A stretch of 10,000 bases of DNA from Rheinheimera sp. (GTDB taxonomy: Bacteria; Pseudomonadota; Gammaproteobacteria; Enterobacterales; Alteromonadaceae). The position numbers were made by a program, and so were the translations under genes. The DNA lies in the NCBI RefSeq assembly GCF_020217005.1, contig NZ_JAIWOI010000065.1, forward strand, positions 1 through 10,000, written 5' to 3'. The first letter of the stretch is position 1; the number at the start of each line of letters is the position of its first letter. Positions 816 to 8,347 of the stretch are shown in pieces. The notes under the pieces are model-generated. The model saw only the letters and a list, made by a program, of their open reading frames with translations, did not search any database and was not told where the DNA came from.

Positions 816-1091
816 TTGGCTAACATTAAGTCTGCTAAGAAGCGCGCTATTCAATCAGAAAAGCGTCGTCAGCAAAACGCAAGTCAGCGCTCAATGATGC
901 GTACTTTCATGAAGAAAACATACGCTGCAGTGTTAACTGCTGACTTAGCTGCTTCACAAGAAGCGTTCAAAAAGATGGTTCCAATTTTGGATCGTATGGC
1001 GGACAAAGGTCTGATCCATAAGAACAAAGCTGCCCGTCATAAGTCACGCTTAAACGCACACGTTAAAGCTTTAGCTACTAAAGCTGCGTAA
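816..1091 (+). CDS. rpsT: 30S ribosomal protein S20 (TTG start)
   Basis: S20 is a primary 16S rRNA-binding protein of the small ribosomal subunit. The 91-residue product starts [20 protein letters not shown] and is lysine/arginine-rich throughout. It ends with the typical helix [20 protein letters not shown] and a short alanine/lysine tail. Its length is close to that of E. coli S20. The start is TTG, with AGGAG seven bases upstream and no in-frame ATG upstream of it. E. coli rpsT also starts with UUG, and this weak start is part of S20 translational autoregulation there, so the same control is likely here (inference). The gene stands alone between its own promoter and a strong intrinsic terminator, and is divergent from murJ. 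Confidence 0.98.
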
Positions 1092-1124: not shown

Positions 1125-1136
1125 TGAAAGTGCAAT

Positions 1137-1165
1137 AAAAAAACCACCGCAAGGTGGTTTTTTTA
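1137..1165 (+). terminator. Intrinsic terminator of rpsT
   Basis: AAACCACC (1141-1148), loop GCAA, GGTGGTTT (1153-1160) form an 8-bp stem with a GNRA-type loop. It is followed by four more Ts and preceded by an A-run (from 1137), the pattern of a Rho-independent terminator. It is correctly placed 50 bases after the rpsT stop. Confidence 0.93.
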
Positions 1166-1394
1166 TTCGCTACCATCCATGGTGCTCACCCTTAAGGGCC
1201 ATCGTCGCTTCGCTCCAATGTTAACAATTGCTCCATGCCATTGTTTATTCGCCGTCGTCTATGACGCTATCCGGCCAGTGGGCACAGCCACTGGCGCTCA
1301 GTCGGGCATTGCCAAACTGTTGGCAATGCTATTTCCGCCTTCACCCTTCGGGCCAACGCATTGCGTTGTTCAAAATTGCTCCCGGCAATTTTGT
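1165..1394. repeat. 230-bp palindrome-rich repeat unit, copy 1 (complete unit)
   Basis: This non-coding unit begins ATTCGC immediately behind the rpsT terminator and is followed head-to-tail by a second copy. It contains a dense series of inverted repeats: ACCAT-CC-ATGGT (1172-1183), the palindrome CCCTTAAGGG (1189-1198), CGTC...GACG (1253-1266), GCCAGTGG/CCACTGGC (1274-1295), GCATTGCCAA/TTGGCAATGC (1306-1329, 10 bp with a 4-nt loop), CAACGCA-T-TGCGTTG (1354-1368) and CAAAATTGC/GCAATTTTG (1371-1393). Open frames crossing it on both strands are best explained by lack of stops: the 230-bp period is not a multiple of three, so no frame repeats. It is probably a dispersed extragenic repeat of this lineage (inference). 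Confidence 0.9.
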
Positions 1395-1585
1395 ATTCGC
1401 TACCATCCATGGTGCTCCCCCTTAAGGGCCATCGTCGCTTCGCTCCAATGTTAACAATTGCTCCATGCCATTGTTTATTCGCCGTCATCCATGACGCTAT
1501 CCGGCCAGTGGGCACAGCCACTGGCGCTCAGTCGGGCATTGCCAAACTGTTGGCAATGCTATTTCCGCCTTCGCCCTTCGGGCCA
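1395..1585. repeat. 230-bp repeat, copy 2 (truncated to 191 bp)
   Basis: This copy matches 1165-1355 with four substitutions: 1188 A to 1418 C, 1257 G to 1487 A, 1260 T to 1490 C, and 1343 A to 1573 G. Identity ends at GGGCCA, so the CAACGCA and CAAAATTGC hairpins are missing. The change at 1487 turns a G-T pair into A-T in CGTCAT-CC-ATGACG. The change at 1573 adds a G-C pair to GCCC-TTC-GGGC. The change at 1490 is in a loop. The change at 1418 breaks the optional GGTG-CT-CACC pairing. The copy ends 21 bp from the stop codon of the leftward ArsR gene and may serve as its 3' structure. Confidence 0.9.
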
Positions 1586-1606: not shown

Positions 1607-1906
1607 TTATTTCTTCTCACAATAGAGTTTATGCAGCAGTCCAATCAAAGCGACTGCCTCTTCACTGTGAATACGATAAAACACGGTTTGCGCTTCTTTG
1701 CGGGTTTTAACCAGTTTTTGTCGTCTGAGTACAGCTAAGTGCTGAGACAAAGCCGACTGACTTAAACCCAATTTTTCATTCATTTCGGTGACTGATAGCT
1801 CAGACTCCAACAAATAACACAAAATCAGCAAGCGGCGTTCATTGGAAACCGCCTTCAGCAGCTTGGCTGCCTGCGCCGAATTCTTCAGCATTTCTTCCAA
1901 TTTCAT
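1607..1906 (-). CDS. ArsR-family regulator, YgaV/BigR/SqrR-like (candidate persulfide sensor)
   Basis: This is a winged-helix dimeric repressor of 99 residues. The order is an N-terminal helix (MLKNSAQAAKLLKAVS), RRLLILCYLL, a helix-turn-helix around LSVTEMNEKLGLSQSALSQHLAVLR, and a wing with TRKEAQTVFYRI. This is the layout of E. coli YgaV and of BigR/SqrR. Two cysteines, C30 (LLILC) and C96 (HKLYC), are 66 residues apart, the spacing I recall for the sulfur-sensing pair in SqrR and BigR. The metal-site ELCVCD motif of classical ArsR is absent. I prefer the ATG at 1906 because it gives the YgaV length and because a likely -10 box overlaps the upstream in-frame ATG at 1936, which would add ten residues. 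The ribosome site is weak for both. No sulfur-oxidation genes are visible nearby, so the target is unknown. The family call is firm; the ligand is inferred. Confidence 0.88.
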   Translation of the reverse strand: MKLEEMLKNSAQAAKLLKAVSNERRLLILCYLLESELSVTEMNEKLGLSQSALSQHLAVLRRQKLVKTRKEAQTVFYRIHSEEAVALIGLLHKLYCEKK

Positions 1907-1934
1907 TTTGTTGCTTCTTTGATCTAAAAACGAC

Positions 1935-1994
1935 ATTATGCCGCCGCGTAGTCTGCTGAAACAATACGATCTATTCTCATCTGTCGTGTTTCAG
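1935..1994 (-). promoter_or_regulatory. Promoter of the ArsR gene with a candidate operator palindrome
   Basis: On the minus strand, TTGTTT (1964-1959) and CATAAT (1940-1935) are spaced 18 bp. The -35 box lies inside the left arm of an 8-bp perfect inverted repeat, CTGAAACA (1956-1963) and TGTTTCAG (1987-1994), with centres about three helical turns apart. A dyad overlapping the -35 box is a reasonable autorepressor site. The predicted transcript would start near 1928, about 20 bases before the chosen start codon. Confidence 0.5.
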
Positions 1995-6521: not shown

Positions 6522-7441
6522 CAGTAGCCTCTTTCCCTATTGACCAGATGCTTTAAAGGTAGTCCATTTAGGGTACGTTGATAATTTTCCACAATCTGAT
6601 GAATAGCCGTATCGACATTAGTGACAGCCGAACAATGAGGTGTGACGAGAACCGCAGGATGTCGCCAATAAGGATCAGAAGCTGGCAAAGGCTCTTCGCG
6701 AAACACGTCCAGGCAAGCCGCCTCTAGCTGACCTGCATCTAGCGCCGCTAATAACGCACCATCATCGACTATGGCACCACGGGCTACGTTAATAAAAATA
6801 GCGCCTCGTTTAAACAGAGAAAAACGTTCTGCATTTAAAAAGTTGGTTGTCTCAGCGGTCAGAGGTACTAAACATATCACCAGATCGGCCTCTGCCACAG
6901 CCTGCAAAAAGCCTGAGTCACCGCTATAACACGCTATGCCATCCAAATGCTTTGCGCTGCGCGACCAGCCACTGACCTGATAGCCTTGCAGCACAAAATG
7001 CCGCGCCGCGGCCTGCCCCAGCTCACCTAAACCCAAAATACAAATCTGTTTTATCTGGCGGGGGCTTTTTGGCTTCCACAACTCCTGGTGCTGCTGACGC
7101 TGAAACAAGTCCAGCCTTAACTGGTAATGCAGCACTATACCGGCCAGATAATTCACCATTGAAGCTGCCAGAGCCGGGTCGACAATTCGACTTAGTGGCA
7201 AGTCAGGCAAAGTAGGATCTGACACTATGCTATCTACACCGGCACCAAAAGACTGCAGACTTTTTAAATTACTTAACGCCGCCAACGAGCCTGCCGGCTG
7301 CTTCCAGACTACGGCCATTTGCACCTGCTCTGGCGCGCTGTAGTTGGGCCATTGCTGGATCAGTACCCCGGGTAATAGGGCATTGAGCTTTTCTACTAAC
7401 GTATCTAATTTTCGATCGGGGATCACCAGGGCTATCGACAT
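6521..7441 (-). CDS. ghrA: Glyoxylate/hydroxypyruvate reductase A-like 2-hydroxyacid dehydrogenase
   Basis: This is a 306-residue NAD(P)H-dependent D-isomer-specific 2-hydroxyacid dehydrogenase that reduces 2-oxoacids such as glyoxylate in the cytoplasm. The substrate domain carries SFGAGVDSIVS (64-74). The Rossmann motif is ILGLGELG (135-142) and the usual LVPLTAETTNF follows. The catalytic triad is R221 (NVARGAIVDD), E250 (FREEPLP) and H269 (TPHCSA). The C-terminus NRERGY closely resembles the RARGY end of E. coli GhrA, and the overall length agrees (about 312 in E. coli). The start at 7441 has only a GGTGA-type ribosome site. It is the first gene of a two-gene minus-strand unit with the crotonase-fold protein, so both may act on one small-acid pathway, but nothing here names it. 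It is divergent from the phosphoesterase gene across about 100 bp. Confidence 0.92.
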   Translation of the reverse strand: MSIALVIPDRKLDTLVEKLNALLPGVLIQQWPNYSAPEQVQMAVVWKQPAGSLAALSNLKSLQSFGAGVDSIVSDPTLPDLPLSRIVDPALAASMVNYLAGIVLHYQLRLDLFQRQQHQELWKPKSPRQIKQICILGLGELGQAAARHFVLQGYQVSGWSRSAKHLDGIACYSGDSGFLQAVAEADLVICLVPLTAETTNFLNAERFSLFKRGAIFINVARGAIVDDGALLAALDAGQLEAACLDVFREEPLPASDPYWRHPAVLVTPHCSAVTNVDTAIHQIVENYQRTLNGLPLKHLVNRERGY

Positions 7442-7543
7442 CAGTTCACCAAAGCTTCAAGTTTTCGTCATATCTCTGACATGGGTTCATCTCATTCTAC
7501 CCGAGCCTGAAGAACCAAGGCCAACAATTCGCAGGAGCTTTGT

Positions 7544-8347
7544 ATGCTGCATTGTCGAACTATCTTCTTGTCTGACATTCATTTAGGAAATAAAGATTGT
7601 CAGGCTGCCTATCTGCTGAACTTTCTGAACCAAACCAAAGCCGACACTATTTACCTGTTGGGCGATATCCTCGACCTCTGGGCTATGCAAAAACAAGTGT
7701 GCTGGAGTCCTGAACAAAATGCGGTGATCCAAAGTCTGTTAGCCAAAGCCGATCAAGGCACTGAAGTGATTTATATTCCAGGCAATCATGATGAAGAATT
7801 CCGCCATTGGGCTGGCCGCCAGTTCGGTAACATTAAACTGCAACTGCGGGGCTGCCACACCACAGCTCTTGGCAAAAAGCTGTTGTTATTGCATGGCGAC
7901 GAATTTGATAAAGAAGTGAACTTTGGTCGTTTTCATGCCTGGCTCGGCGACAATCTTTACGACTTTTTGTTGTTCCTCAATCGTTGGAGCAACAGACTTC
8001 GCCGTGCTTTGGGTGGACGTTATTTTAGTCTGGCCGCTTTTATAAAAAGCAAAGTACCAGGCGCTCAGCAGGCAATAGCCCGCTACCGTGATGCAGCAGT
8101 AGCTAAGGCTAAACGCAGTGGTTTTGATGGTGTGGTCTGCGGCCATATCCACCATCCGGAAATTAGCCTGCAGGATGGCATTATTTACTGTAATGACGGT
8201 GACTGGATCGATAACTGCACAGCATTAATAGAGCAGCAGGACGGCTCTTTAACACTCTATCACTGGACTGAACAAAGCCATACGCTGGCGGCTATGCCTA
8301 TAGCAGTGCTGGCAGAGGAACAACCTGCTCAAAGCAAAGTTGCCTGA
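7544..8347 (+). CDS. Metallophosphoesterase, UDP-2,3-diacylglucosamine diphosphatase-like (LpxH-related)
   Basis: This 267-residue calcineurin-like phosphoesterase has all five metal-binding blocks: D11 and H13 (LSDIHLG), D41 (LLGDILDLW), N81-H82 (PGNHDEE), H117 (LLLHGDEFD) and H201/H203 (CGHIHHPE). This puts it in the family of LpxH, which hydrolyses UDP-2,3-diacylglucosamine in lipid A synthesis. It differs from true LpxH, which has GNRD where this has GNHD, and it carries a long helical insert (about 125-190, with GRFHAWLGDNLYDFLLFLNR) as in LpxH-related paralogues. The housekeeping lpxH is probably elsewhere, so I give no symbol. The ATG has AGGAG six bases upstream. The next gene, an acyltransferase on the same strand, hints at envelope-lipid work. 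Confidence 0.85.
   Translation: MLHCRTIFLSDIHLGNKDCQAAYLLNFLNQTKADTIYLLGDILDLWAMQKQVCWSPEQNAVIQSLLAKADQGTEVIYIPGNHDEEFRHWAGRQFGNIKLQLRGCHTTALGKKLLLLHGDEFDKEVNFGRFHAWLGDNLYDFLLFLNRWSNRLRRALGGRYFSLAAFIKSKVPGAQQAIARYRDAAVAKAKRSGFDGVVCGHIHHPEISLQDGIIYCNDGDWIDNCTALIEQQDGSLTLYHWTEQSHTLAAMPIAVLAEEQPAQSKVA

Follow-up and report, generated by a model that had tools for sequence, protein, structure and literature searches.

We analyzed a 10,000-nucleotide stretch of a Rheinheimera sp. contig (the window), in which a palindrome-rich array lies at 1165-1585. The array sits between rpsT on the plus strand and an arsR-family gene on the minus strand, whose 3' end faces it (Table 1). It starts within the T-tract of the rpsT terminator (1134-1167) and is made up of two tandem copies: a complete unit of 230 bp and a shortened one, with 98% identity over the 191 nucleotides compared. 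A scan of the window with Rfam found no family at its cut-off.

Table 1. Features of the rpsT-arsR interval and its flanking genes (positions in the window)
Feature	Position	Strand	Evidence or remark
rpsT (ribosomal protein S20), upstream of the array	816..1091	+	Pfam Ribosomal_S20p, 104 bits
Two-way intrinsic terminator, AATAAAAAAACCACC-GCAA-GGTGGTTTTTTTATT	1134..1167	.	Perfect 15-bp inverted repeat
Module A of copy 1, TTCGC-TAC-CATCCATG-GTG-CTC hairpin	1165..1188	+	Sequence; family known from other loci
Core 1, modules B (CCCTTAAGGG), C-type (ATCGTCGCTTCGCTCCAATG) and D-type (AACAATTGCTCCATGCCATTGTT)	1188..1247	+	Match to model R1 at 1164-1247, 41.2 bits
Core 2, module A, slightly decayed (CGTCGTCTATGACG)	1247..1268	+	Sequence
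Insert within core 2, about 70 nt	1269..1341 (right edge +/- a few nt)	+	Two palindromes; similar modules elsewhere in the same genome
Rest of core 2, modules B (CACCCTTCGGGCC), C (AACGCATTGCGTT) and D (GTTCAAAATTGCTCCCGGCAATTTTGT)	1330..1395	+	Match to model R1, 57.9 bits
Unit copy 2, ending early after CCCTTCGGGCC	1395..1585	+	Four differences from copy 1
ArsR-family regulator gene, convergent	1607..1936	-	Pfam HTH_5 (arsR family), 48.9 bits

A first-pass annotation had described a tandem 230-bp element with covarying hairpins, and most of that description holds, with errors in details. The copies do start 230 nt apart, and they differ at exactly four places, as it said (1188/1418, 1257/1487, 1260/1490, and 1343/1573). 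It placed one motif at four sites: CATCCATG is intact at 1165, 1395, and 1477, but the site at 1247 departs from it at two positions. It also reported three base pairs that had changed on both sides. In the sequence, A-T to G-C and C-G to T-A have done so, but T-G to C-G is one-sided. The fold of the unit (-76.5 kcal/mol, against a mean of -62.25 kcal/mol) beats 200 of 200 dinucleotide shuffles (z = -3.48).

Four kinds of hairpin module (A, B, C, and D) and an extra insert form the unit, which is a mosaic. Module A has the plan TTCGC-stem-CATCCATG-stem'-GCTC, module B is a small hairpin of the CCCTTCGGGCC type, module C is a short hairpin, and module D follows GTTCAAA-nnn-GYTCCNGRC-n'n'n'-TTTGT. 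There are two cores in the unit, at 1164-1247 and 1247-1395. The right-hand part of the unit is the second core, which is split from its own A hairpin by the insert. The insert contains a hairpin (GCCAGTGG-GCACAG-CCACTGGC, at 1274-1295) and a palindrome (GCATTGCCAAACTGTTGGCAATGC, at 1306-1329). In a relative (G015), the array at the same site (L057) has cores without the insert. This insert module (GCCAGTGG..CCACTGGC plus GCATTGCC..GGCAATGC) recurs, in whole or in part, at dispersed loci of the window's genome (L003, L004, L005, L007, L010, and L017).

The unit is also dispersed, as the first-pass annotation had suggested in reading it as a possible dispersed extragenic repeat. It had set against this a unit that occurs nowhere else, and we found matches by blastn in the same genome and in its relatives. 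The window's genome has 21 matches, two of which are the copies in the window, which leaves 19 elsewhere. Matches are present in 19 of 39 relatives (20 of 40 genomes with the window's own). Within the genus, 14 of 21 relatives match, and one of them has as many as 37 matches. Of the 18 other genomes, 5 match, four of them by a single weak match. (One core in the window's genome lies about 600 nt from csrA; the two places are G000:C27, 7536-7608 and 8216-8371.)

At greater distances, we searched with the D pattern, leaving its stem positions free. It is found in 26 of 274 genomes of the class (including the window's own) and in 23 of 222 genera, and the reversed pattern, as a control, is found in 0 of the 274. 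Among the matches listed (at least 120 stretches), the genomes with D include members of Serratia, Pectobacterium, Yersinia, Klebsiella, Citrobacter, Salmonella, Pantoea, Brenneria, Sodalis, Xenorhabdus, Gilliamella, Rheinheimera, Alishewanella, Arsukibacterium, Pseudoalteromonas, Methylomonas, Thioalkalivibrio, Billgrantia, and Salinicola. A covariance model of the core (R1, described below) is positive in 71 of 299 genomes of the phylum (including the window's own; some of those searched may also have supplied sequences to the model). These belong to 34 of 153 genera and include some families outside the class. Copy numbers from this search are lower bounds, as at most 16 candidates were scored per genome. 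One family outside the class (f203, with many metagenome-assembled genomes of 1-3 Mb, above all from genus g288) is rich in R1 matches.

We also looked at mobile elements and at other sequence contexts. Phage and E. coli collections have no match to 1165-1594. Viral contigs have no match to the A pattern and four stretches that match the D pattern, and in three IMG/VR contigs (L076, L078, and L079) the core has the same flanks. The C-D part of the core matches 24 plasmid records, 23 of them from Pantoea; the plasmids are from Pantoea and Klebsiella, and we inspected three (L073, L074, and L075). Of 18 loci scanned with Rfam, six contain tRNA genes (L128, L178, L202, L205, L220, and L229), which are mostly close to the core. 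At many of these loci and of six others (L088, L098, L106, L107, L179, and L214), the core sits at a GGATT^CGAACC-like place, which resembles the reverse strand of a tRNA T-arm, and a fifth hairpin (GAACC..GGTTC) often follows D. At another locus (L144), a core at 7368-7443 lies within a group II intron RNA as scored by Rfam (7260-7700; group-II-D1D4-3, 51.6 bits), in a stretch that comes after a terminator-like stem and T-run.

The stems of this family covary. We collected 113 cores with a recognizable A hairpin and aligned the 89 that were not too alike; none is from the window's genome. The alignment has four helices with 22 pairs in total, and 91.7% of their cells are paired, compared to 69.6% if shuffled and 31-45% if slid, although these controls remove shared ancestry only in part. 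Changes on both sides affect 464 cells, compared to 150 in the shuffles. The number of pair types over the whole structure (47 versus 45.5) is not above the shuffles. Because the selection of cores demanded a TCC hairpin of at least 4 bp, helix A is partly selected for. If helix A and the pattern-fixed positions of D are left out, 87.0% of cells still pair (62.1% if shuffled and 33-44% if slid), 241 cells have changed on both sides (80 if shuffled), and there are 31 pair types (25.5 if shuffled). The outermost pair of helix B is paired in only 42 of the 89 cores. The pair counts stand out clearly from both controls, and paired stems are kept in the family.

Pattern searches also speak against chance palindromes. 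With 13 positions left free, 61 of 63 distinct A hairpins from the genus have TCC at the centre, with the next base free, and the variable stem pairs switch jointly among the 63 (GC in 52 and AT in 7 for one pair; CG in 52 and TA in 8 for the other). For D hairpins with free stem positions, 146 of 164 distinct stems pair fully, and the pair of half-fixed letters is T-A at 86 of 164 places, C-G at 74, and C-A at 4. Across orders, the loops and joints are conserved and the stems vary. A covariance model had been proposed for this element; the one that we built from the 89 cores, R1, recovers both cores in the window (57.9 and 41.2 bits). The match at 1330-1395 also covers the last part of the insert. 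For copy 2 (1395-1585), R1 reports no match of its own, probably because it would overlap the match that ends at 1395.

We infer that the stems are kept paired because folding, as a DNA hairpin or as RNA if the element is transcribed, matters to the element. There are two other ways to account for the pairing. The null hypothesis of the first-pass annotation was a local duplication with chance palindromes. The 230-bp tandem is indeed a recent local duplication, but the modules are widespread and covary, and we consider this explanation to be refuted by the dispersal and the pair counts. Alternatively, the stems might stay paired by mutation, with no selection for folding, if template switching in palindromes corrects the arms. 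Correction by template switching is known for quasi-palindromes, and these stems are near-perfect on both strands. However, correction of the arms does not by itself explain why conserved loops and joints lie beside stems that vary across orders, and the copies in the window differ merely by four single changes. We view this route as improbable.

We then examined where the arrays of the genus begin. We took 80 stretches around A places from 12 genomes of the genus, chosen from the matches listed, with one per array where possible. The search pattern fixed TTCGC and nothing upstream of it. This sample yields 89 array calls at 34 distinct sites, and 85 of the calls have enough flanking sequence. 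Since some long arrays were counted repeatedly (L338, L348, L359, L360, L363, and L382), we also give counts by distinct site. Read on the strand with the TCC loop, the 5' end directly adjoins the T-tract of a terminator in 61 of 85 arrays and at 27 of 34 distinct sites. In 45 arrays, stem-loop, T-run, and ATTCGC follow at one identical offset. Such contact is seen at the other end of the array in 0 of 85 cases, at 40 of 1335 random places, and at 72 of 955 random intergenic places after a gene. An earlier, partly overlapping sample, in which some array starts were misplaced, gave 30 of 58, compared to 0 of 58 at the other end and 26 of 1220 at random.

In the genus, then, arrays usually start directly at a transcription terminator, and one orientation prevails. 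Among the 34 distinct sites, 17 lie between tandem genes with the TCC strand as the sense strand, 1 lies between tandem genes in the opposite sense, 11 are between convergent genes, 1 is between divergent genes, 2 are at an edge, and 2 are inside a reading frame. (By array call, the same classes have 48, 1, 19, 9, 3, and 9.) Inside or beside some arrays there are core matches on the opposite strand, as a reverse-oriented variant (L360, L338, L342, and L359). A caveat is that intergenic T-runs are probably mostly terminators, so it is hard to separate being aimed at terminators from being tolerated there.

Outside the genus, cores are not fused to terminators: a terminator lies within 20 nt on the corresponding side in 3 of 140 cores, and on the other side in 1 of 140. 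The exact target is therefore not a general one. At up to 60 nt, terminators are mildly enriched on either side (12 and 17 of 140, compared to 45 of 1400 at random). Nor do cores strongly favor the loop of a larger palindrome, for which we saw a modest excess only (19 of 97, versus 9.7).

The rpsT site itself varies between species. We located rpsT in all 22 genomes of the genus. In 12 close genomes (including the window's own), the gap after rpsT ranges from 39 nt with no array (in G002) to 450 nt (in the window), and all 12 sites have the same rpsT terminator, with or without an array. Seven of these genomes have arrays at the site (G000, G001, G004, G006, G015, G016, and G021) and four have a single A-like hairpin (G008, G010, G012, and G014). 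Among the ten more distant members of the genus, the eight with sequence that we inspected have a different terminator and no array.

Comparing the orthologous sites of G012 and G001, we found a difference of 83 nt that corresponds to one unit between ATTCGC repeats; this could equally be a deletion between those repeats. Orthologous rpsT sites exist both empty (in G002) and filled, as in MITEs, and either gain or loss would fit. A T-tract with ATTCGC flanks a unit on both sides, yet the unit itself carries a T-tract with ATTCGC. In the sequences that we viewed, no terminal inverted repeat stood out. We also asked where the closest relative of each unit lies. For 25 of 31 units it is in the same array, for 4 it is elsewhere, and 2 are ties, which indicates that growth is mostly local. 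Whole units change between species at this site, and arrays grow mostly by local tandem duplication.

Could the arrays act as RNA? The first-pass annotation had suggested a structured RNA read through from rpsT. Here, the array begins after the T-tract of the rpsT terminator. It would be transcribed only by read-through of rpsT or from the opposite strand, where it would form the 3' end of the arsR mRNA. More broadly, transcribed arrays might provide hairpins that act as 3'-end stabilizers, processing sites, or back-up terminators. Module D is a hairpin with a T-run and could back up termination; the pairs covary strongly; and in the genus, one orientation relative to the upstream gene prevails. 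Outside the genus, cores prefer the 3' ends of genes (25 of 88 sites are convergent and 11 are divergent). But the genus arrays come after a terminator, so little transcription is expected on that strand, and at tandem sites outside the genus the cores lean to the other strand. (There, the strand with GGA is the sense strand at 29 sites and the strand with TCC at 21, which is not significant, with p = 0.32; if both neighbors are within 350 nt, the counts are 19 and 9, with p = 0.09.) A comparison of G-T and A-C wobbles, which was meant to reveal the functional strand, gave conflicting results: 12 versus 32 in the class, 12 versus 2 in the A stems of the genus, and the opposite for the other helices of the genus. 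(In one of these counts, column pair (160,194) reads as a loop position, and about half of the A-C cells come from a single inner pair in helix C (44,139); we set aside the raw totals of that count.)

The known RNA that comes closest is AaHKsRNA22 (Rfam RF02902), an sRNA of Aggregatibacter. Its consensus has the core's order of joints and hairpins, on the reverse strand, although the loop of its A-like hairpin, unlike the core's, lacks GGA. Weak matches to this family speak for an RNA, but they fall below its cut-off of 39.8 bits: 26.4 bits (E = 0.016) for the core at L144 (7360-7458, minus strand) and 22.4 bits (E = 0.062) in the window (1309-1402, minus strand), the latter being one of 15 weak matches. 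Overall, we think it unlikely that the arrays are maintained as structured RNA. AaHKsRNA22 may be an expressed relative of the core.

The first-pass annotation had also raised a binding array, which is a possible reading, and CsrA would be the likeliest candidate to bind. A more specific proposal is that the arrays are decoys for CsrA/RsmA, with the reverse-strand A loop (CANGGATG) soaking up CsrA as CsrB or RsmZ do. This loop resembles the high-affinity CsrA/RsmE hexaloop, which is given as CANGGANG in the available part of PMC4894983. D carries GGA too, and GGA is on the reverse strand in the 61 of 63 genus A loops mentioned above, with the next base free. A csrA gene is present in the window's genome. 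However, almost every tandem site in the genus has the GGA strand opposite to the sense strand of the gene upstream (17 versus 1), and the lean of the GGA strand towards sense elsewhere is not significant by either count. Also, in the sequence, module B and the insert lack a GGA loop, and D has C rather than A two bases ahead of its GGA. We therefore consider a decoy role very unlikely.

We compared the core to known repeats, using the sequences of ERIC and RU-2 as printed in the available part of PMC2759123. ERIC (also IRU or RU-1) is a repeat of Enterobacterales, and the likeness is that some cores sit at fixed places inside it. Both flanks match ERIC, in order and in one orientation, for 31 of 147 cores (a single random stretch reaches such a flank score in under 1% of trials). 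These cores are mostly at two positions, after about nucleotides 36-46 and about 81-84 of the printed sequence. Another 9 of 147 cores are inside YPAL-like elements, at one position and in one orientation. Together, ERIC and YPAL hold 40 of the 147 cores, and the other 107 match neither on both flanks. The positions in ERIC and YPAL may reflect a few old insertions that were copied along with the host repeat. Interrupted ERIC elements were reportedly described by Cromie et al. in 1997, De Gregorio et al. in 2005, and Wilson and Sharp in 2006.

There are also differences from these repeats. ERIC is a 127-bp element with the ends TATACCC...GGGTATA, whereas neither sequence occurs at 1091-1607 of the window, and the four-hairpin core is also found well outside Enterobacterales. 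YPAL (RU-2), from Yersinia and relatives, is 168 bp long and contains inverted repeats, according to the available part of PMC2229807. The printed sequence of RU-2 has GCGCCAAGGATGGCGC and TACATGGATGTA, which are palindromes with a central GGA; inspecting the window's array by eye, we saw no YPAL sequence in it. The BOX elements of pneumococcus are likewise modular, with a variable number of the inner module and RNA-like folds, but their host phylum is unrelated, and the available part of PMC3049150 describes no fusion to terminators. REP and BIME elements, too, are short palindromes outside genes that combine into mosaics, and most of them lie downstream of a gene (available part of PMC3733652). 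In contrast, the core has four hairpins per unit, and we saw neither GTAG nor CGTC as a conserved, unpaired tag at its end. GTAG is absent from the plus strand of 1091-1607. CTAC, which is GTAG in reverse, occurs at 1170 and 1400 within the variable stem of A, as does CGTC at positions 1253 and 1483, and CGTC at 1203, 1256, and 1433 is inside modules; none of these is constant across the A copies (pairing was judged by eye). In the parts of the literature available to us, which are thin on subscription papers, neither the core as one family nor its fusion to terminators is described; this is not proof of novelty.

Overall, we propose that the window contains an array of a dispersed, non-autonomous, mobile structured repeat that nucleates at terminators and grows by tandem duplication. 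We put the probability of this at roughly 60%. The element would be a core of about 75-80 nt, built from four small hairpins (A-B-C-D), in which loops and joints stay constant and the stems vary freely yet remain paired. In the genus, the first core would have landed in a fixed orientation where the rpsT terminator has its T-tract, with the junction ATT^C. It would arrive by a transposition-like insertion aimed at a hairpin and T-tract. In the genus, a T-run (or TTTTGT) closes D and ATTCGC comes next, which rebuilds the terminator junction. As this end equals the junction at the host terminator, each unit would recreate the place where the array started, which would explain why the arrays are head-to-tail. 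Arrays could then gain or lose whole units by recombination or duplication between ATTCGC junctions. In the window, a second palindromic module would have been inserted into one core, and local duplication of this composite would have given the 230-bp tandem.

We considered two kinds of enzymes as the mover, and among the Y1 loci and group II intron machinery that we checked, we found no mobilizing gene. First, for Y1 (RAYT) transposases, there are 44 matches in 12 genomes. We scanned 30 of these loci for A or D and had hits at two: one is real (L277) and the other matches the pattern but has no hairpin core (L299). At L277, in G006, the Y1 transposase gene is beside an A module. Second, the GIIM domain of group II intron machinery is present in 6 of the 22 genomes of the genus. 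It is absent from five array-rich genomes (G002, G006, G010, G016, and G021) and from the window's own (G000).

A bolder version of our proposal is that the core is a mobile hairpin unit that is recognized by its fold and not by the sequence of its stems, occurs in Gammaproteobacteria and beyond, inserts at terminator T-tracts in some lineages, and rebuilds its target, with an enzyme that is so far unlinked to any repeat. The unit might be guided by single-stranded hairpin DNA or by the 3' ends of RNAs, and its terminator-like end would make the arrays. We consider this version doubtful.

Beyond the first-pass annotation, this analysis shows that arrays at other sites are also fused to terminators, that the family extends to other orders, that an insert is nested in the unit, and that there is a link to ERIC and YPAL. 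One structure-conserved unit joins the sequence inside ERIC and YPAL, hairpin arrays behind terminators, and cores near tRNA genes, and the covariance model R1 gives a means of finding it. The gap between rpsT and arsR is a natural series for following the gain and loss of arrays. If starting at terminators reflects targeting, then this family would offer a case in which aiming at a hairpin and T-tract by a repeat can be tested. The family is also relevant to a long-standing question, namely how palindromic repeats spread without a transposase.
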